Positions 421 through 57,335 of a stretch of DNA of 64,000 bases are shown piece by piece. Location of the stretch: assembly GCF_017872975.1 (NCBI RefSeq), contig NZ_JAGGJP010000008.1:1-64000 (forward strand), read 5' to 3'. Source of the stretch: Rubellimicrobium aerolatum. GTDB lineage: Bacteria > Pseudomonadota > Alphaproteobacteria > Rhodobacterales > Rhodobacteraceae. Within the stretch, counting starts at the first letter, position 1; the number at the start of each line of letters is the position of its first letter. The translations under genes were made by a program, and so were the position numbers. The notes under the pieces are model-generated. The model was not told where the DNA came from. It saw only the letters and a list, made by a program, of their open reading frames with translations, and did no database searches.

Positions 421-2103
421 CTAGCCGGAGGCTCCGTCGAGGTGTTCGGCGAGCCGTTCCGTGTCCTCCGACGACCAGTCCTCGACCCCCAGCGCCGCCG
501 CCCAGGCCGGGGCGTAGTGCTGCGCCTGGTAGTCGTGTCCGTGGCCGGGCACTCCGAGAGCCAGCGCCATGTCTACGGCCACTTGGGCGAAGGTGACGAA
601 GGGGAACCACCGCATCTGCGGCGACAGGTCGGGAGCTCGGTCGGGCCCGAGCCAGTCCGGCCGACGTAGCGCGAGCGACCAGTCGAAGAACACGATCGGA
701 TCGCTGCCGTACTGGAGCAGCACGAGCCGCATCGGTCCCCAATCGGCATCGAAGCGGTCGAGAGCACCCTCCTGGTTCGAGGCGCGGACCAGCGACCCGT
801 TCCCGAACCGAGGCCGCCAGGCCGGGCTTCCGGGGGCGCGACGGTCCACGACCATGCGCCAGAAATCGCTGAGGAAGGGCGAGCCGGCCCACATGGCTCC
901 GTCGAAGGGATCGCCCAAGACGTCCAGCAGCGGCACGGTCTCCTGCGACAGGAAGGCCCCGAGGCTCAGGCCGTGGAGGGTGAGCCGGGGCCGGTCCTCC
1001 CGCGGAAGGCCTGTCCAGTGGCGGTAGACGAGGTCGAACAGCGCCCGCGCCTCCTCCAGGCCATGCGTCGGATCGACGAGCACGGAGACGGGGCTCGGCA
1101 GGTAGGAATATTGCACGGCGACGCTGGCGACATCTCCCCGAGTCATGTAGTCGAGCGTGTCCATCGCGCCCGGGTCGAGCCAACCCGTCCCGGTCGGCAT
1201 CGCGATGACGAGATGGCTCCGCTCGAACCCACCCACCCGCCGGAGCTCCTCGAAGGCAAGCCGCGCCCGTTCCTCGGCGGTCGGCGCCGCGATCAGGCCG
1301 ACATAGACGCGGACCGGCGTCCGGGCAGGCCCGCCCCAGAAGGTCCCGATCGCCTCGGCCGACGGCGTGCGCGCCACCCAGTCGCGTCCCATGCGGCCGA
1401 GGTCCTCCCAGGCGACCAGCGAGGCGGCGCTGCCCGTGCGGTTCGGGTCGGATGGCGGGGCCGTGTCGGGCGGGACGAAGTCGTCGGCGAGGCGCGAGCT
1501 TTCGTCGATCATCCGCAGGACGCCGCGCAGCACCACGCCGTCGAGGAGGAGCGCGGCGAGAGCGGTCGCCCCAAGGAGGCCGACGGCCCGGGCCGCCCGT
1601 GTTGGCAGGGCGCGGCTGGCCGTCGAGGATAGACGGTCCGAAAGCCTCCCGAAGAGCCGCCCGAAGACCAGGAGCAACAGGAACGCCACGAGAGCGAGCG
1701 TCGCGATCCAGACGGACGCGAAGCCTTCGAGCGGGGGCAGGCCCCAGGCGGCGCGCACGGAGTCCTGCCAGCCCCGGCCGGCGGCCAGGGCCACCAGGGC
1801 CAGGACCCCTGCCACCAACAGGGCGATGCGCCGTAGCAGGACCGGCGCGCGGGTCCGCGCCGCGAGCCCGAGCCAAGCTGCCACCCCGACCGCCGCCTGC
1901 CAGAGGAGATAACCGAGGGCGAGGAGCGCCCCTCCCAGAAGCCCTTGAATGACGGGCGCGCGGGGCGTCATCGAGGGCGTGAGCGAAAGGGCGAACAGCA
2001 AGGTGCCGCAGAGAACGCCTCCGGCGCTGGGCCCCACGAGGACGCGGGCCGGCCACCGGCCGTTCGCGGAGACGCCCGCCCTCTCGGCCGCCTGTCGCGT
2101 CAT
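421..2103 (-). CDS. Integral-membrane alpha/beta-hydrolase family protein
   Basis: This 560-residue protein matches the bacterial family that joins an N-terminal multi-helix membrane domain to a C-terminal alpha/beta-hydrolase domain (the Abhydrolase_9 type). About five hydrophobic segments lie within residues 20-200, including a Leu/Val-rich one near 131-148. The nucleophile elbow G-L-S-L-G is seen near residues 378-382 (Ser about 380). The catalytic half would face the periplasm or membrane surface. Substrate is unknown; lipid or ester hydrolysis is a guess. An in-frame start 30 codons upstream exists, but that extension is Pro/Gly/Arg-rich, so the ATG at 2103 is preferred. The family is fairly sure, the biochemical role is not. 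Confidence 0.75.
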   Translation of the reverse strand: MTRQAAERAGVSANGRWPARVLVGPSAGGVLCGTLLFALSLTPSMTPRAPVIQGLLGGALLALGYLLWQAAVGVAAWLGLAARTRAPVLLRRIALLVAGVLALVALAAGRGWQDSVRAAWGLPPLEGFASVWIATLALVAFLLLLVFGRLFGRLSDRLSSTASRALPTRAARAVGLLGATALAALLLDGVVLRGVLRMIDESSRLADDFVPPDTAPPSDPNRTGSAASLVAWEDLGRMGRDWVARTPSAEAIGTFWGGPARTPVRVYVGLIAAPTAEERARLAFEELRRVGGFERSHLVIAMPTGTGWLDPGAMDTLDYMTRGDVASVAVQYSYLPSPVSVLVDPTHGLEEARALFDLVYRHWTGLPREDRPRLTLHGLSLGAFLSQETVPLLDVLGDPFDGAMWAGSPFLSDFWRMVVDRRAPGSPAWRPRFGNGSLVRASNQEGALDRFDADWGPMRLVLLQYGSDPIVFFDWSLALRRPDWLGPDRAPDLSPQMRWFPFVTFAQVAVDMALALGVPGHGHDYQAQHYAPAWAAALGVEDWSSEDTERLAEHLDGASG

Positions 2104-2365
2104 GGTAGGGCCGGTTCCCCGGCCAGGAGGGCCCGGCGATCCGCTGGCGAGGCGCGGGGTTCGCCCTTTGCGCCCACGAGGTCCGTCCGGCACCGAACCG
2201 GCCGAAGGGTGCGAAGGAGCGCGCGCAAGCTTGGCGGCACGGGGGTCCCGGAAGCGCGCTGCACCGGCGGGCGCTTGGCGCCTGGCACGGCGGGGCTCCT
2301 CGGCACCATGCCTCCCGGGGCGTCGTGGCCGCTCGAATCCGGGGACTGGCGCATGTCCCGTCCGG

Positions 2366-3424
2366 TCAGTCGGCGGGCTCGAACGGGAATGGCTCGGCCA
2401 GGGCGAACTCTCCCGACGCCTCGCCGGACAGGATGCGGGCCATATCCACGCCGAGGTCGAGCTTCCGCGCCCCCGAGCCCTCCGAGAAGTCGAGCCGCTT
2501 GAGGTCGACCCAGAACACGTTCGGCGACAGCGCCGATTCCGCGTAGAAGAGCCGGTCGGTCTGGTCGGCCACGACGCGCCAACGCGTGGTGGCGAGGTTC
2601 GGTTGTCCCGGCACGCTGATGCCCCAGGGCGTCGAGGCGTTGCGGATCACGCTCATGGTCGCGGCGGCGGCCACGCGCGGGTCGGACGACTGCTCCACGG
2701 CGTCGATGTAGAACGACGCCCGCACGAAGCGGTCGGTGGCGCGGCTGGTGCCCGGAAGGAAATCGCGGGGGTTCACCCGGTCCCAGTAGGCGCGCACGGC
2801 GAGCTGCTCCTCGTAGCGCGGCTCGTTGGTCATCACCCGGAACTCGCGTGAATGATGGATCGCCAGCTCGCCGTCGATCCATTCCAGGATGGCGCTGTCA
2901 CCAGTCGCGTCCGACAGCGACAGATGCACGGTCGTCATCCGTCCGGGCATGGCCGGAACCTCGCCCGTCACGGCGTCGAAGGGGGTGGCGCGCAGGTCCT
3001 CGACCGCCTCGGCCACCGTGGCGTAGTTGTCGAGGAAGTATTGTGCCCAGATCGACAGCGACATCCTCGGGGTCGTGCCGTCGTCCTCCGGGTAATCGGC
3101 ATCCACCTGCCACAGCAGGTTCGCCACCAGCCCGGCCTCGTTCATCCCGTCCACCGTGGAGATGTCGTAGCCCGACACGATCAGACTGCCGTAGCGCGAG
3201 GTCCATTCGACCGAGCGCGGCCCGGCCTTGCCGTCCCGTTCCATCCCACGCGGGAAGACCCACAGGTTGCTGGCGATGGGCGCGCTCCAGTCGAAGCTGC
3301 GCCCCGTCAGGACGCGCCCCTCGGGGCCGAGATAGACGGCCCGCGTGCAGGCCTCGGCGACCGTGGCGGCCCCGAGCGCCGCCGCGAGGAGGAGGGCCGC
3401 CGCCGATCGCATCCGCCTGTTCAT
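2366..3424 (-). CDS. Choloylglycine hydrolase family protein (linear amide C-N hydrolase)
   Basis: This is an Ntn-hydrolase of the bile salt hydrolase / penicillin V acylase family, 352 residues. A signal peptide (MRSAAALLLAAALGAATVAEA) is followed at once by Cys26, which becomes the N-terminal nucleophile after cleavage, as in periplasmic members. Other family marks are 'GRSFDW' near residue 41, a 'DGMNEAGL' block near residue 117 and 'TNEP' near residue 195. In Gram-negative bacteria such enzymes often act on N-acyl-homoserine lactones or other N-acyl amides; the substrate here cannot be read from sequence. It is followed 13 bases later by an outer-membrane-protein gene on the same strand. 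Confidence 0.85.
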   Translation of the reverse strand: MNRRMRSAAALLLAAALGAATVAEACTRAVYLGPEGRVLTGRSFDWSAPIASNLWVFPRGMERDGKAGPRSVEWTSRYGSLIVSGYDISTVDGMNEAGLVANLLWQVDADYPEDDGTTPRMSLSIWAQYFLDNYATVAEAVEDLRATPFDAVTGEVPAMPGRMTTVHLSLSDATGDSAILEWIDGELAIHHSREFRVMTNEPRYEEQLAVRAYWDRVNPRDFLPGTSRATDRFVRASFYIDAVEQSSDPRVAAAATMSVIRNASTPWGISVPGQPNLATTRWRVVADQTDRLFYAESALSPNVFWVDLKRLDFSEGSGARKLDLGVDMARILSGEASGEFALAEPFPFEPAD

Positions 3425-3437
3425 CGCCGTCTCCCGC

Positions 3438-4187
3438 TCAGAAGCGCCAGGTCACGCCGAGGAGGGGGCCGGAGAGCGCCGCCTCGAAGTCCGTCCCCCC
3501 ACTGTCGTAGTCCACATACAGCCGTCGCCAGCCCGAGGAGACATAGAACCTGTCCGTGACGGCGTAGTTCAGGGTCGCGACCACCTGGTTCGTGGCCTCC
3601 GACCCGGTGCCGAAGCCACCCACGTCGGCATAAAGGATTGCCGACAGGCGCGGCGCGAGCGTCAGGTTCACCCGCGCGCCAAGGATCGGGTCCGAGAAGC
3701 TCACGTCCGCGCCGGCCGACAGGCCCACCGCCGGCGCGGCGGCCGAGACCTCCACGTCCCAGAACCGCGCCCCGGCCAGAAGGTCCACCGTCGCGCGCGG
3801 CCCGGAGACGGCGCGGTAGCCCACCGCCAGCGTGACCGACCTCTGACTCACCTCGCCCTCGGCCGGGAGCCCCGGCGGCACGGTCCCTTCGCGCGAGGAG
3901 GTGGCGCTGCTGATGTCGCCCAGGACGACCCAGCGCTCGCTCCGCGCATAGGCCGACAGGAAGAACGCCCCGTCGAGGTCCTCCAGCACGTCCGACAGCG
4001 ACTCGTCGAAGTCGAGCGTCGGCCCCCCCGCGAGGGGCGTCAGCTCGCCCGATACGCCGCTGCCCCAGACGTAGGGCGTCACCTGCACGTTCCAGCCGCG
4101 CCCGTCCTGCGCGGCCGCCGGCACTGCGGCGAGGGCGGCCGCGAGGGCCGGCCCAAGCCGAACGACAAGGGACGGAAGCATCCTCAT
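3438..4187 (-). CDS. Outer membrane beta-barrel protein
   Basis: A 249-residue protein with a clear signal peptide (MRMLPSLVVRLGPALAAALA, cleaved around AAAQ-D). Alternating aromatic/polar strands follow, and the chain ends in LLGVTWRF, the terminal-Phe signature used by the outer-membrane assembly machinery. The sequence resembles the small porin-like barrels common in Rhodobacteraceae, and no specific ligand is evident. Its ATG (4187-4185) overlaps the TGA of the upstream amidohydrolase gene in an ATGA arrangement, so the two are probably translationally coupled. Co-transcription with the downstream Ntn-hydrolase is likely from the short gap. Confidence 0.75.
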   Translation of the reverse strand: MRMLPSLVVRLGPALAAALAAVPAAAQDGRGWNVQVTPYVWGSGVSGELTPLAGGPTLDFDESLSDVLEDLDGAFFLSAYARSERWVVLGDISSATSSREGTVPPGLPAEGEVSQRSVTLAVGYRAVSGPRATVDLLAGARFWDVEVSAAAPAVGLSAGADVSFSDPILGARVNLTLAPRLSAILYADVGGFGTGSEATNQVVATLNYAVTDRFYVSSGWRRLYVDYDSGGTDFEAALSGPLLGVTWRF

Positions 4188-5647
4188 GCCGGCATCTCCT
4201 TCACGATCCGTCCCCCCTTCAGGATGAGCCGCAGGTTGGCCTCCGGGTCGCCCAGCCAGTCGAGCCCGGCCTCCGGGTCGCCCTCGACCACCAAAAGGTC
4301 GGCATGGGCACCCGGCGCGATGACGCCGAGTGGCGCGGGGTAGGGCGCCCGCCCCCCCGACAACGCCAGCAGCTCGCCCGCGTTGCCGGTGGCCATCCGC
4401 AGCGCCTCCAGCGGCGGCATGAAGCGCGCCAGCTTGGCGAGCTGCCGGCCCTGGCTCGCGCCGCCCTCGCCCGCGTTGAACAGGATGTCGGTGCCAAAGG
4501 CCATGCGGACCCCGAGGCTCCGGCCCAGGTCGAAGGCGCGCACCGTGCCCTCGGCGATGCGGGCCTGGTCGGCGCGCTGCGCCGGGTCCGGCTTGGCGTT
4601 GGCGTCCTCGTCGAGAAGGAAGGGCTGGATCGACCACCACACCCCCTCGCCGGCCATGATGCGCGCCGTCTCCTCGTCGGCGAGCTGGCCATGCTCGATG
4701 GAGCGCACGCCCGCCCTCACGGCCCGCTGGATGCCTTCGGGCAGGTAGACGTGGGCGCAGACATAGGTGCCCCAGTCCGCCGCCGCCTGCACCGCCGCGC
4801 GCATCTCCGGCTCGGTGAACTGGACGGAGTCGAGCGGGTCGTAGACCGAGGACACGCCGCCGCCCGCGTGGATCTTGATCTGGCTCGCCCCCTGCATGAG
4901 CTGCTCGCGCACGCGGCGCAGCACCTCGTCCGGCCCGTCGGCGATGACGGCGACGCCCGTCCGCTCGCTGTAGTCGGCCGGGTCGCCGGGCATCCGGGGC
5001 AGGGCGTGGAGCATCCGATAATCCCCGTGCCCCGAGGTCTGCGAGATCGCCGCGCCCGACGGGAAGATGCGCGGCCCTTCCACCACGCCCCGGTCGATCG
5101 CCGCCTTGAGCCCGAAGGCCGGCCCGCCCACGTCGCGCACGGTCGTGAAGCCGCGCCGGAGCGTCGCCCCTGCCTCGCGCCCTGCGATCAGGTGGACGAG
5201 GGCGATGTCCTGCGTCAGCGCCGCGATCTGGCTCACCGCCGTCAGCGTGGCGTGCCAATGCGCGTCGATGAGCCCCGGGATCACGGCCCGCCCGCCGCAG
5301 TCGATGACCTCGGCCCCCTCCGGGACCTCGCCGGCCGGCGGAAGCCCCGCGATCCGGTCGCCCTCGACCAGGATCGCGACGCCCTCGCGCATCGCGAGGT
5401 CGCGCCCGTCGAAGAGACGCAGATTCGTGAGCAGCAGCGGCCGCCCCGGCGCCTGCGCCCGGACCTCCACGGGTGCGATCCCGAACCCCGCGAACATCCC
5501 CAGCACCGCCGCCGCCCCGCCCAGCATCCGCCGCCGCGTGATGTCGGCCTCGATCCGCCGCATGGCCGCGAAGGTTTCCGGCGAGCCGCAGAGGCAGGAA
5601 TGGTCGTGCTGGGGAAAGGGATGGGCGCGTTCGCAGGCCGAGCACAT
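4184..5647 (-). CDS. Tat-exported metal-dependent amidohydrolase family protein
   Basis: A 487-residue member of the imidazolonepropionase / prolidase-like amidohydrolase group. Metal-site motifs are visible: 'GLIDAHWHA' (HxH), a Lys in 'QIKIHAGGG', 'CAHVY', 'IEHGQ' and 'AFGTDI'. The N-terminus from the chosen ATG (5647) holds the Cys/His cluster MCSAC..HPFPQHDHSCLC. A twin-arginine signal (TRRRMLGGAAA, about residues 37-47) follows, so the mature enzyme is predicted to be periplasmic. An in-frame ATG 30 codons upstream is less likely, because relatives often begin with a similar MCxxC segment. The substrate is unknown; peptidase or carbamate hydrolase activities occur in the family. Confidence 0.8.
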   Translation of the reverse strand: MCSACERAHPFPQHDHSCLCGSPETFAAMRRIEADITRRRMLGGAAAVLGMFAGFGIAPVEVRAQAPGRPLLLTNLRLFDGRDLAMREGVAILVEGDRIAGLPPAGEVPEGAEVIDCGGRAVIPGLIDAHWHATLTAVSQIAALTQDIALVHLIAGREAGATLRRGFTTVRDVGGPAFGLKAAIDRGVVEGPRIFPSGAAISQTSGHGDYRMLHALPRMPGDPADYSERTGVAVIADGPDEVLRRVREQLMQGASQIKIHAGGGVSSVYDPLDSVQFTEPEMRAAVQAAADWGTYVCAHVYLPEGIQRAVRAGVRSIEHGQLADEETARIMAGEGVWWSIQPFLLDEDANAKPDPAQRADQARIAEGTVRAFDLGRSLGVRMAFGTDILFNAGEGGASQGRQLAKLARFMPPLEALRMATGNAGELLALSGGRAPYPAPLGVIAPGAHADLLVVEGDPEAGLDWLGDPEANLRLILKGGRIVKEMPA

Positions 5648-51543: not shown

Positions 51544-52293
51544 ATGGCCGGCCATTCCAAATGGGCCAACATCCAGCATCGCAAGGGCAAGCAGGACAAG
51601 CTGCGGTCCAAGCTGTTCTCCAAGCTGTCCAAGGAGATCACCGTCGCGGCCAAGATGGGCGACCCGGACCCCGACAAGAACCCCCGCCTGCGGCTGGCGG
51701 TGAAGGAGGCGCGGTCGAGTTCGATGCCGCGCGACGTGATCGACCGCGCCATCAAGAAGTCGCAGGGCGGCGACGCCGAATCCTATGAATCGATCCGCTA
51801 CGAGGGCTATGGCCCCGGCGGCGTGGCGGTGATCGTCGAGGCGCTGACCGACAACCGCAACCGCACGGCGTCGAACGTGCGGTCCACCTTCACCAAGAAC
51901 GGTGGGAACCTGGGCGAGACCAACTCGGTCGCCTTCCAGTTCGAGCGGAAGGGCGAGATCTTCTACAAGGCCGAGGCCGGGGACGCCGATTCCGTGATGA
52001 TGGCGGCGCTGGAGGCGGGCGCGGAGGACGTGGAGTCCGACGCGGAGGGCCACTGGATCACCACCGGCGAGGACGACCTGGGCACCGTCTCGGCGGCGCT
52101 GGAGGCGTCCCTGGGCGAGTCGGAGACGGCCAAGTTCGTCTGGCGGCCCAAGCTGACGACGCCCGTGGAGGGCGAGGTCTTCGAGAAGCTGATGCGGCTG
52201 ATCGAGGTGCTGGAGGACGACGACGACGTGCAGAACGTCACGACGAACATGGAGACCTCGGACGAGGCCATGGCCGCCTACGCGGAGTCGTGA
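51544..52293 (+). CDS. YebC/PmpR family protein
   Basis: A 249-residue protein with the universal start [19 protein letters not shown] and '[19 protein letters not shown]'. The middle has '[19 protein letters not shown]' and '[20 protein letters not shown]'. The family is annotated as transcriptional regulators. YebC/TACO1 proteins have also been tied to translation of proline-rich stretches, which would pair functionally with EF-P elsewhere in the window. The DMT gene begins at or just after its stop. Confidence 0.95.
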
Positions 52294-52319
52294 CGGCGGC
52301 CCCGCGGGGAGGGGCCGCC

Positions 52320-53189
52320 GTGACGCGGCCTCTTGCCGGGATCGTCTGGATGGTGCTGTCGGGGCTGTTCTTCGTCGGCATGACGGCCATCGTGAAGCAC
52401 GTCGGATCGGACGTGCCGGCGGCGCAGTCGGCGTTCCTGCGCTTCGCGCTGGGGCTCCCGTTCGCGGTGCCGATGCTCTGGCCGCTGTGGCGGACGGGGG
52501 TGACGGCGGGGCAGGCGCGGCTCTGCGCCCTGCGGGGGGCGGTGCACACGCTGGGGGTGCTGCTCTGGTTCTTCGCCATGACGCGCATCCCCTTGGCCGA
52601 GGTGACGGCCATGAACTACCTGAACCCGATCTACGTGACGCTGGGCGCGGCGCTGTTCCTGGGGGAGCGGTGGGAGGCGCGGCGGCTGCTGGCGGTCGGG
52701 GCGGCGCTGGTCGGCGCGCTGGTGATCCTGCGGCCGGGGCTGCGGGCGGTGGAGCCGGGGCACGTCGCCATGCTGGGGGCGTCGCTGCTGCTGGCCTCGG
52801 GCTACCTGGTGGCCAAGCGGCTGTCGGGGCAGGTGCCGGCGACGGTGGTCGTGGGGATGCTGTCGGCGACGGTGACGCTGGGGCTGCTGCCCTTCGCGGT
52901 GGCCGTCTGGGTGCCGGTGGGCTGGGCGGAGATCGGCTGGTTCTTCGGGACGGCCTGCTTTGCCACGCTGGCGCATTACTGCATGACGCGGGCCTTCGCG
53001 GCCGCGCCCGCCGGGGCGACGCAGCCCGCGACGTTCCTGCAACTGGTGTGGTCGGTCCTGCTGGGGGCCGTGGCCTTCGGGGAGCCGGTGGACGGCTGGG
53101 TGATCCTGGGCGGCGGGATCATCATGGCGGCGGTGAGCGCGGTCGCCTGGCGGGAGGCGGTGGCGCGGCGGGTGGCGGCGGAGGGGTAG
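52320..53189 (+). CDS. DMT family (EamA) transporter
   Basis: A 289-residue inner-membrane protein with ten hydrophobic helices and two EamA repeats. It opens 'LAGIVWMVLSGLFFVGMTAI', the repeat end is 'AMNYLNPIYVTLGAALFLGE', and the second is 'PATFLQLVWSVLLGAVAFGE'. Members export or exchange metabolites; the substrate is unknown. Two GTG starts are possible: 52290, overlapping the YebC stop, and 52320, which has GGGGAGGGG at good spacing and is preferred. Confidence 0.85.
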   Translation: MTRPLAGIVWMVLSGLFFVGMTAIVKHVGSDVPAAQSAFLRFALGLPFAVPMLWPLWRTGVTAGQARLCALRGAVHTLGVLLWFFAMTRIPLAEVTAMNYLNPIYVTLGAALFLGERWEARRLLAVGAALVGALVILRPGLRAVEPGHVAMLGASLLLASGYLVAKRLSGQVPATVVVGMLSATVTLGLLPFAVAVWVPVGWAEIGWFFGTACFATLAHYCMTRAFAAAPAGATQPATFLQLVWSVLLGAVAFGEPVDGWVILGGGIIMAAVSAVAWREAVARRVAAEG

Positions 53190-53258
53190 GGGGATAAGGG
53201 TTGCGGGCCGGCGGGGAATCGGCTGGAACGAAGCGAGCCGCACGAGAGGACCGCCCCG

Positions 53259-54833
53259 ATGACCATCCACGCCCACAGCCTGACGGGCCGCCCCGAGGCG
53301 GAATGGGAGACGCTGGAGGCGCATTCGCTCCGCGTCGCGGGGGCGGCGCGGGCGCGGGCGGAGGTGGCGGGGCTTGGGGATCTCGCGCATCTGCTGGGGC
53401 TGGTGCACGATCTGGGCAAGGCCAAGCCCGCGTTCCAGGCCCGGCTGCGGGGGAGCGCCGCCGAGGTGTCCCATTCGGGCGAGGGGGCGCGGCTGCTGCG
53501 CGAGGCGGGCGGCGGCATGGGCGCGATGCTCGCCGGGGCGGTGGCGGGGCACCACGGGCGGCTGCCCAACCCCGACCGGCTGGCGAAGCGGATCGCCGAG
53601 GCCGAGGCCGTGGCGGCGCCGGGGTGGGCGGGGTTCGCGAGGCCGGAGGCGCCGGAGCGGCTGATCCGGTGCCCGGCGGCGGAGCGGGCGTTTCGCGCGC
53701 AGTTCCTGGTGCGGTTCCTGTACGGGTGCCTGACCGACGCGGACGACCGCGAGACGGGGGCCTGGGAGCGGGAGGCGACGGGGAGGAGCGAGGCCGCCCG
53801 CCCCGCCGTGCTGACGCCGGGGATGCGCGCGGCCTTCGACCGCCATGTCGCGGGGTTCCGGGCCGACACGCCGGTGAACGCGATCCGGGCGCGGGTGCTG
53901 GCCCATGTGCGGGGGATGGCGGCCGAGCCGCCGGGGCTGTTCACGCTGACGGTGCCGACAGGCGGGGGCAAGACGCTGGCCTCCCTGGGGTTCGCGCTGG
54001 ACCATGCCGCGCGGCATGGGATGCGGCGGCTGATCCATGTCGCGCCCTTCACGTCCATCGTGGAGCAGACGGCGGACGTGTTCCGGGGCATCCTCGGCGA
54101 TGACGCGGTGCTGGAGCACCATTCGGCCTTCGACTGGGACGGGGTGGACGAGGGCGAAGCCGAGCAGCGCCGCGTCGCCGGGATGAGCTGGGACGTGCCG
54201 GTGGTGGTGACGACGGCGGTGCAGTTCTTCGAGAGCCTGTTCGCGGCGCGCAAGAAGCGGTGCCGCAAGCTGCCGGCGCTGGCGGGCGCGGTGATCGTCG
54301 TGGACGAGGCGCAGACCATGCCGAGGGGCTTCCTGCGGCCCTGCCTCGCGGCGCTGCGCGAGCTGGCGGCGGGCTATGGGGCGAGCGTGGTGCTGTGCAC
54401 GGCGACGCAGCCGGCGCTGACGGCTCAAGCGGGGTTCAGGGCGCCCGAGGCGCTGCGGGGCGCGCGGGAGCTGGCGCCGGACCCGGCGGGGCTGCACGAG
54501 GCGCTGCGGCGGGTGCGGGTGCGCGACCTGGGGGCGCAGGCGGACGCGGACCTCGCGGCGCGGCTGCGGGAGGCGCGACAGGCGCTGCTGATCGTGGACA
54601 ACCGGGTGCAGGCGCGGCGGCTGTTCGACGCGGTGGAAGGGACGGAGGGCGCGGCGCACCTGAGCACGCTGATGACGGCGGCGCACCGGCGGGCGGTGCT
54701 GGTCGGGGTTCGGGCGCGGCTGACGGCCGGGAAGCCGGTGCGGCTGGTGTCCACGTCGCTGGTCGAGGCGGGGGTGGACGTGGACTTCCCGCTGGTGATG
54801 CGCGCGGCGGCGGGGATCGATTCGCTGGCGCAC
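53259..54833 (+). pseudogene. cas3: Truncated Cas3 nuclease-helicase (type I-C-like), joined to a CRISPR remnant
   Basis: The frame from ATG 53259 (GAGAGGA upstream) encodes an intact N-terminal HD nuclease and most of the helicase. HD motifs are 'LEAHSLRVA', HD at residues 50-51 in 'LVHDLGKAKPAF', 'HSGEG' and 'VAGHHGR'. Helicase motifs are 'PTGGGKTLAS' (near 231), 'APFTSIVEQTAD', 'VIVVDEAQTMP' (near 347), 'LCTATQPAL' and 'VSTSLVEAGVDVDFPLV'. Family sequence stops after 'RAAAGIDSLA' (residue 524), where QxxGR of motif VI should follow; the next bases are a CRISPR repeat. The open frame runs on to 55532 through the array and noise. Without motif VI and the C-terminal domain, helicase activity is very unlikely. 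Confidence 0.9.
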
Positions 54834-54981
54834 GGGGGCGTGGATCGAAACCACCCCCTTGGCCGGGCCAAAGTAGATGTCATCGGTCGCCCCCCATGCG
54901 GGAGCGTGGATAGAGACAACAAGCGGGTGCAGGTGGACGGCAGCCCGCCGGTCGCTCCCATGCGGGGCGTGGAGGGAAGCG
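54831..54981 (+). CRISPR. Remnant CRISPR array, about three repeats and two spacers
   Basis: A 3' partial repeat (54831-54851, ending GGATCGAAAC), a 34-nt spacer (54852-54885) and a full 32-nt repeat (54886-54917, GTCGCCCCCCATGCGGGAGC then GTGGATAGAGAC) come first. A 33-nt spacer (54918-54950) and a decayed repeat (from 54951, GTCGCTCCCATGCGGGGCGT then GGAGGGAAG) follow. Repeat length, stem and the GTGGAT-GAAAC end match type I-C repeats. The antisense reads VVSIHAPAWGAT twice, the familiar translation of such repeats. The spacer lengths are regular, so this is a true array end and not chance. Repeats 2 and 3 carry substitutions, as trailer-end repeats often do. Confidence 0.88.
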
Positions 54982-55485
54982 CTGTTCAGGCTCTTGGTCG
55001 GAAGCCGACCTCGCGTGGGTGCCGGGGCGCAGCCTTGGTGGCGCGACCGGTTGCGGTGCATCCGTATGGCCACGCGGGGACGCGAAGGGCTCGGGCCGGC
55101 CGGGCCGGTGCGGGGCTGGTCGGGCCGAAGGGATGGGGCGGCGCTTCCTTTTCTGGATCGGTCGGGTCGGGACGGTTCACGATATGGCTGGCCGGGCGTG
55201 GGCGTCGGGGCGGATGGGTGGGGTGCCAAGGCTCGGCGAAGGGCTGTCGGAGGGGGGGCGAACGGCCCGTTCGGACGGAAGACGAGAGGGGCTTCGATGA
55301 GACCGCCGGCGCTTTGCCCGGCTTCCGGGCGGGAGGCTCGCCGGAGGTGGTGATGTCGTTGACGATGGTGCGGCTTGGGCCGGAGCCGGGCGGTCCGGAG
55401 GTCCGGCTCGACGGGCTGGGGCCTCGGCGTCCGATCTGGCGGGGATGGCGGCCGGCCCGGCAGGGAGCCGGGTCGGGACAGGGGG
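54982..55485. other. Gene-free stretch after the CRISPR remnant
   Basis: I find no gene, further repeat or leader-like AT-rich segment in these 504 bases. It may be the old downstream flank of the CRISPR locus. The open frame entering from cas3 crosses it and ends at 55532 inside the choV antisense, but it has no family resemblance. Confidence 0.55.
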
Positions 55486-56501
<1,016 letters not shown>

Positions 56502-56505
<4 letters not shown>

Positions 56506-57335
56506 GACGGGCGTCCCACGCGAAGCATCCGGTCGAGGATGATGGCGACCACGACGATGACGAAGCCGGACTCGAAGCCGAGCGCGGTGTTGACGGAGTT
56601 GAGCGCGCGGACGACCGGGACGCCGAGGCCGTTGGCGCCGACCAGGGCGGCGATCACCACCATCGAGAGCGAGAGCATGATCGACTGGTTGAGGCCGGCC
56701 ATGATCTGCGGCAGCGCGTAGGGCAGCTCGACCTTCCAGAGGGTCTGGCGGGGGGTGGCGCCGAAGGACTGGGCCGCTTCCAGCAGGGAGGGAGGCGTCG
56801 AGGCGATGCCCAGGTGCGCGAGGCGGATGGGGGCGGGCAGAACGAAGATCACGGTGGCGATCAGGCCCGGCACCATGCCCAGGCCGAAGAAGACGATGGC
56901 CGGGATCAGATAGACGAAGGTCGGCAGCGTCTGCATCAGGTCGAGCACCGGGGCCATGGCCTGATGGAGGCGCGGGCGGTGGGCGCTCGCGATGCCGATG
57001 GGGACGCCGATGCCCATGCAGACCGCGCAGGCGGTGAGGACCAGGGTGAGGCTTTCGGTCGTCTCCTCCCAGTAGCCCTGGTTCAGGATGAACAGGAAGC
57101 CGAGGAGCACCAGGAGGCAGGTGCGGAACGAGCGCTGGAGCGCCCAGGTCAGCGCCACGAAGATCGCGATGATGACGAGGGGATGCGGCGTCTGGAGGAG
57201 CCAGAGGAGCGCGTCGATGATCGCGCCGATGGCGGTGGCGATGCCGTCGAACACGGCCTGCCCATGGCTCTGGAGCCAGTCGAAGAGGTCGGCGGCGACC
57301 CGGCCCACCGGGATTTTCTGATACATCCACTCCAT
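56502..57335 (-). CDS. choW: Choline/betaine ABC transporter permease
   Basis: A 277-residue membrane subunit with about six helices and the binding-protein-dependent permease (EAA) loop 'LLEAAQSFGATPRQTLWKVE'. 'LDLMQTLPTFVYLIPAIVFF' is the strongly conserved segment of ProW/ChoW proteins. It lies 51 bases after choX on the minus strand and overlaps choV, so it belongs to one transporter with both. Confidence 0.93.

Follow-up and report, generated by a model that had tools for sequence, protein, structure and literature searches.

How does a cas3 gene come to run directly into the last units of a CRISPR array, and what remains of the defence system to which both belonged? This arrangement is found in the window, i.e. 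the whole stretch of 64,000 nucleotides analysed here, which lies on contig C8 of the genome of Rubellimicrobium aerolatum (3.76 Mb in 59 contigs, 95.6% complete). The reading that we favour, with a probability of roughly 0.88, is that the locus is what is left of a type I-C system that was gained horizontally, inserted between a DMT transporter gene and choV, and lost by a deletion that fused cas3 to its own array, at the trailer end (Table 1). As a relic the locus is ordinary in kind; the unexpected part is that the join between cas3 and an array tail is recurrent.

Table 1. Features of the type I-C relic and its flanks (window positions).
Feature	Position	Strand	Remark
EamA/DMT transporter gene, left flank	52290..53189	+	PF00892, E 4.2e-24; adjoins choV in 5 of 7 congeners
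Interval between the DMT and choV stop codons, 2296 bp, holding the I-C relic	53190..55485	.	putative remainder of a lineage-specific insertion
5' part of cas3, encoding the HD domain and most of the helicase	53259..54832	+	stops just before helicase motif VI
Continuation of the cas3 frame past cas3, through array and trailer, overlapping the choV 3' end	54833..55532	+	from the list of open reading frames
3' 19 nt of a type I-C CRISPR repeat, directly behind cas3	54833..54851	+	
Spacer 1, 34 nt	54852..54885	+	without convincing target
CRISPR repeat, degenerate, 32 nt	54886..54917	+	
Spacer 2, 33 nt	54918..54950	+	without convincing target
Terminal CRISPR repeat, more degenerate, 30 nt	54951..54980	+	2 nt short
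Trailer-side DNA	54981..55485	+	no clear counterpart in P. luteus or P. endophyticus
choV, choline ABC transporter ATP-binding gene, right flank	55486..56508	-	TIGR03415, 492.6 bits (cut-off 483.75)

The open reading frame at 53259-55532 (757 aa) begins as a Cas3. Its best profile is PADLOC Cas3c (E 7.9e-162), with residues 2-542 aligned to positions 12-476 of 612; the intact Cas3 of Paracoccus luteus spans 14-600 of the same profile. The Pfam families Cas3_HD and DEAD are matched, and the NCBIfam model cas3_HD scores above its cut-off (73.7 vs 43.45 bits), while the NCBIfam model of the helicase core stays under its own (66.3 vs 102.45 bits), as expected of a cut helicase; the solved structures closest by sequence are 8zns and 8g9u. 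The Cas3 part is intact to residue 524 and ends in ...RAAAGIDSLA. After this position P. luteus, P. endophyticus and the other compared relatives carry QAAGRCNREG or a near variant, which is helicase motif VI. The protein thus belongs to the I-C branch of Cas3, but it is not complete, given that the profile match is cut before motif VI. The sequence-only reading had described an I-C-like Cas3 frame intact up to GIDSLA, and both the profile and the alignment agree with it; its coordinates were correct within one base. Long open frames, such as the one that continues past cas3, are common in such G+C-rich DNA. On the opposite strand, an open frame of 983 aa (window 52278-55229) spans the DMT gene, the cas3 remnant and the array, and is most likely a by-product of the G+C-rich codons.

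Right behind cas3, the 3' part of a repeat and two more repeats with regular spacers occupy positions 54833-54980, as had been proposed. With two degenerate repeats besides the partial one, and with spacers of 34 and 33 nt, the array accords with the type I-C pattern, in which repeats are of ~32 nt and spacers of ~33-37 nt. When the 32-nt repeat pattern was searched in the 3.76-Mb genome allowing up to 3 mismatches, it occurred once, at the window array, and its reversed control did not occur; the window repeats are therefore not due to chance, and chance or mis-called repeats are ruled out by this count. A 13-nt pattern of the repeat end, with 1 mismatch, was found at 8 places in the same genome, two of them at the window array and the others single, and neither pattern disclosed a second CRISPR array.

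In a comparison of Cas3 over 41 genome-contig loci, the nearest proteins were those of P. luteus CFH 10530 (locus L003, 79%) and P. endophyticus (L004, 76%). By PADLOC, the P. luteus locus has cas3-cas5-cas8c-cas7-cas4-cas1-cas2, behind which lie a leader and an array with at least 56 repeats, in the I-C gene order that the sequence-only reading had given. The window resembles this locus in its Cas3 (79% identical over 524 residues), in the orientation of gene to array, and in the repeat, that of P. luteus being 1 nt off the consensus inferred for the window; in contrast, P. luteus has a complete operon, its long array and different flanking genes. Among the 13 window proteins compared with the P. 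luteus and P. endophyticus loci, cas3 was the sole match. A further intact homologous system was recognized in locus L106 by similarity to the P. luteus proteins. The P. endophyticus locus (1890-4305) is an independent relic, in which the C-terminal part of cas3 has an in-frame stop, cas5 is down to 45 residues, and the remaining P. luteus cas proteins have no match within 13.5 kb.

In some I-C loci with a full-length cas3, a single repeat-like sequence lies right behind this gene, before cas5 where it can be placed. It was located at 12364-12390 of L007, 2842-2870 of L008 and ~3886-3918 of L125, is clearest in L125 and L008 and weaker in L009, L075, L126, L129 and L130, and was not seen behind cas3 in L003, L005, L006, L029, L105 and L106. 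Cas-regulating repeat-like RNAs are known for other subtypes, and the sequence could be one of these, guiding Cascade to its own operon.

Searches of the R. aerolatum genome with the families of Cas1 (PF01867), Cas5 (PF09704, Cas5d), Csd1/Cas8c (PF09709) and Cas7 (Csd2, PF05107) gave no match, and the same searches matched 9, 6, 1 and 3 of 14 control genomes, respectively. The search for other cas genes, suggested from the sequence alone, has thus returned none of these four, and an intact I-C system elsewhere in the genome was rejected on the same grounds; at 95.6% completeness and in 59 contigs, cas genes could nonetheless sit in a gap. The locus combines cas genes that are cut or missing with a remnant array, as a relic does. 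Since the Cascade and adaptation genes that were searched for are gone, and the last helicase motif with them, the fused product is unlikely to act as a type I effector; its function is most likely lost and the system is very probably dead.

The flanks of the locus were examined in a genus set of 8 genomes, that of the window included. The DMT gene and choV are convergent, with stop-to-stop gaps of -4, 6, -4, -4 and 9 bases in G001, G003, G004, G005 and G006. A full I-C operon between these flanks, which had been looked to in close relatives as proof of the deletion, was found in none of the 7 congeners, and 5 of them carry an empty site. This empty site indicates that the I-C locus would be an insertion in the window's lineage, later collapsed; from the comparison of these genomes, the locus is best read as not ancestral at this position and the 2296 bp as a lineage-specific insertion. 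In G007 (locus L103, contig C3) ~640 bp, apparently another gene, separate DMT and choV, and no close DMT ortholog was found in G002. The convergent gap has either received DNA more than once, or a gene was lost in the congeners other than G007. Another congener, G004, has an I-C operon with matches to cas3, 5, 8, 7, 4 and 1 and 36 repeats, which was discarded as a same-site counterpart because it is unrelated, with a cas3 47% identical and on another contig. When the whole insertion was compared with plasmids, 20 records matched with 60-90% identity, none of them spanning 80% of the insertion; the trailer DNA (54981-55485) gave weak scattered matches in the P. luteus and P. endophyticus genomes, the best with E 0.0026 over 37 nt. 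The GC3 of the cas3 remnant is 0.954, that of five neighbouring genes 0.92-0.98 and that of the P. luteus gene 0.83; a value within the range of the neighbours suggests that the locus was long resident, or that the donor had a like composition.

According to the favoured reading, a type I-C locus would have been gained horizontally, inserted in the convergent DMT/choV gap and then become resident. The deletion itself we infer from distant relatives. It would have been internal, with one end behind codon 524 of cas3 and the other at the trailer side of the gene's own array. Lost with it would be motif VI and the C-terminus of Cas3, the genes for effector and adaptation proteins, the leader and the bulk of the spacers; judged from P. 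luteus, this may come to about 6.3 kb as a minimum, besides array units. The sequence-only reading had ascribed all of this to one deletion: the extent of the loss, from motif VI through the leader and most of the array, is borne out by the comparison with P. luteus and by the four absent families, whereas a single event is not demonstrable because the array may have eroded afterwards. At the join, GCGCA-CGGGGGC, 0 nt are common to both sides when the cas3 of P. luteus and P. endophyticus (GCGCAGGCC) is set against the window repeat (..ATGCGGGGGC..). Short-homology recombination through a shared GCAC, which had been thought plausible, is therefore not supported by a comparison made with relatives in place of the window's own lost sequence. 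The ends may have been joined by illegitimate end joining, and the deletion may have been favoured since it switched immunity off, in response to autoimmunity or to conflict with incoming DNA; such losses are usually suspected to stem from self-targeting or from conflict with mobile DNA.

The 5' part of cas3 joined to an I-C array tail is also present in three other alphaproteobacterial loci. A search of 394 genomes of the family gave matches in 25: the window's own, 18 near-full (frames of 724-760 residues), 4 fragments (G169, G280, G303 and G345) and 2 weak ones (G186 and G355). In G303 (L115, contig C28) ~283 residues of cas3 are followed by the last 18-19 nt of a repeat and by 4 full repeats, with 1 base shared at the join, and in G345 (L117, contig C54) 70 residues are followed by ~15 nt resembling part of a spacer and by 5 repeats. 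The third case is a plasmid of Allorhizobium pseudoryzae (NZ_CP049244.1, L141), in which ~366 residues run into a repeat at its 5' end, the tail has 3 repeats, and some 5-7 bases, counted by eye, are assignable to either side. The plasmid searches covered 60 of 81 and 60 of 75 records among the matches listed, and two records were examined in detail. Plasmid pOB3b2 of Methylosinus trichosporium was rejected as an array join, given that its 289-residue cas3 stub meets DNA without repeats; this stub (L143, 9989-10855) is annotated as Cas3'', and no array or other annotated cas gene lies within 10 kb. Array joins account for 4 of the 8 I-C cas3 5' remnants inspected, and those of L004, G169, G280 and L143 meet other DNA; this proportion is no rate, since the set is non-random and detection needs the cas3 5' part. 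No repeats were found right behind the cas3 match in L017, L018, L021, L034 and L037, which have shortened or shifted cas3 frames. A search of the class (385 genomes) matched 20, the window's own included; in the loci fetched from it, a scan for repeat ends that reached from 40 bases before the cas3 match to 200 bases behind it added no array join.

In all four joined loci the array tail lies directly behind cas3 and in the same orientation. The tails have been left with 3 to 5 units, the first being partial in the window and in G303, and the arrays counted in seven relatives have 14 to 43 units (P. luteus exceeds these). The tails are short either because the deletions tend to end close to the trailer, or because recombination between repeats has since removed spacers. 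In two of the four joins, those of the window and G303, cas3 meets the repeat at an identical point, where the second arm of the stem begins and 18-19 nt remain to the 3' end. On a bolder and rather unlikely view, such joins would be the recurrent self-inflicted death of type I-C systems, rescuing cells from autoimmunity or conflict, perhaps via breaks at repeat hairpins; if true, these scars would record past autoimmunity events. In E. coli type I-E systems, 46 of 1169 genomes with a cas3 match have no place covering 80% of cas3 (60 rows among the matches listed). The two of these 46 that were examined, strains S1 and KFu022 (L144 and L145), were rejected as parallels, both being IS1-bounded deletions: the cas3 5' part is kept and the following genes are lost, as in the window, but these deletions end at an IS1 copy within cas7, and cas5, cas6, cas1, cas2 and the array stay. 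The losses of these two strains start at different points of cas3.

The age of the truncation was approached through the conservation of the remnant. In an alignment with 52 other Cas3 proteins, the window protein departs at none of 44 invariant columns; of the 95 columns conserved at the 95% level it departs at 3, a number close to those of the intact proteins of P. luteus (4) and L073 (3). In a second alignment, of 46 non-redundant intact proteins, it departs at 0 of 52 invariant columns and at 1 of 94 at the 95% level; the intact proteins, left out singly, depart at a mean of 0.48 invariant columns and at most 9, and the P. endophyticus pseudogene at 2 of 52, a value reached by 3 of the 46 intact proteins. 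The dN/dS of the window cas3 is 0.20 to P. luteus, 0.22 to P. endophyticus and 0.39 to L073, and its unique changes number 28 against 32 in P. luteus with L073 as outgroup, 23 against 25 with L005, and 21 against 18 with L007. These counts are balanced, and the codons that remain in cas3 look as if selection had acted on them until recently. The four joined loci (window, G303, G345 and L141) have no departure at 52, 24, 5 and 30 strictly invariant columns, respectively; at the 95% level the window, G303 and L141 depart at 1 column each (of 94, 42 and 60) and G345 at 0 of 7. Since all four remnants are open up to the join and show no such departure, the losses look recent. The truncation in the window thus looks recent relative to the divergence of the sequences, or else the remnant is still selected, and we favour the first.

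The spacers were compared with several collections. Against 50,697 phage records, spacer 1 had one hit, of 18 nt at E 1, with nothing convincing, and spacer 2 had twenty at E 1 to 4, the longest over 27 of its 33 nt at 89% (E 4). There was no exact match in viral contigs for 30 of the 34 nt of spacer 1 or 26 of the 33 nt of spacer 2, and with up to 5 mismatches neither was found in the fetched loci besides copies of the window itself. For matches to cas genes, the 12 spacers of the four joined loci, 34-37 nt long in the three parallel ones, were compared as peptide and as DNA with 8 I-C operons, with 30 shuffles each. The two window spacers were not above the shuffled controls, in a comparison that could miss more diverged operons; spacer 4 of G345 reached 9 DNA mismatches against a shuffle minimum of 10, spacer 2 of L141 equalled the peptide shuffle maximum, and the remaining ones fell within the shuffled range. 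With 24 comparisons, results this near to the shuffles give no evidence for anti-cas spacers, and the reading of the tail as an anti-cas array was discarded because the cas matches of the window spacers are no better than chance.

Three other accounts of the locus have to be weighed. An assembler might have joined cas3 to the array tail, with repeats causing the rest to drop out, and a draft of 59 contigs and the repetitive nature of arrays lend this some plausibility; nonetheless, the sides of the join have no overlap when relatives are used, four families of the missing operon do not turn up in other contigs, and the same kind of join exists in NZ_CP049244.1, a plasmid record described as complete, so that an artefact is highly improbable. 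The absence of decay in the cas3 remnant also fits a retained function, and a shortened Cas3 could have been kept for a role of its own as HD nuclease or helicase, with or without the tail, an option that fits the open frame and the unaltered strictly invariant columns of the window and the three parallels. However, the remnants end at widely different points (about residues 524, 283, 366 and 70), so there is no shared product, the 70-residue one holds just the start of the HD domain, and a recent loss accounts for the same data; we consider this account very doubtful.

It is also conceivable that the cas3 promoter drives the leaderless tail as a small array, whose guide RNAs would serve another system or act as regulators. 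The tail follows cas3 directly and in its orientation in all four loci, and orphan I-F arrays with anti-cas spacers are described for E. coli in the consulted part of a review (PMC8616872). A scan of the locus for consensus promoters gave nothing, although such a scan says little in this group. Cas5 is needed to cut I-C guide RNA. The R. aerolatum genome has no Cas5 match, the spacers have short or weak phage matches, no exact match in viral contigs and no cas match beyond chance, and the two complete repeats of the window are degenerate, all of which makes a working array hardly credible. We thus retain the relic of a horizontally gained system, and infer that its loss is recent.

Degenerate CRISPR-Cas loci are known, including type I-E relics with only cas3 (PMC2886076). 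In the sections of that report available to us, the degraded I-E loci of Salmonella and Shigella resemble the window in that the operon was lost and its 5'-most gene, cas3, was left as a pseudogene; they differ in subtype, and those sections mention no cas3 that runs directly into the tail of its own array. The same sections consider the number of repeats in general a good indicator of integrity in Escherichia and Salmonella, and name E. coli B strains in which many repeats are present although cas genes are absent (PMC2886076). Orphan arrays and anti-cas spacers have been reviewed; as far as the part consulted goes, the orphan I-F arrays of E. coli (CRISPR4) are like the window in that an array tail outlives the cas genes, but their spacers match cas genes, and the two of the window do not beyond chance (PMC8616872). 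Cut-short cas3 genes have been reported in E. coli, according to the portion seen of PMC6301781. Among papers viewed by title and the start of the abstract, none describes a cas3 joined to its own array, a limited look that is weak evidence of absence.

CRISPR systems come and go often, but it is rare to catch the trace of a loss while it is still fresh; in this locus, single-base positions can be given both for the insertion site and for the join. With four scars of the same kind in different genera, there is a small set of cases on which questions can be tested: by what route and for what reason type I systems are deleted, and whether the system's own nuclease or repeats take part in the deletion.
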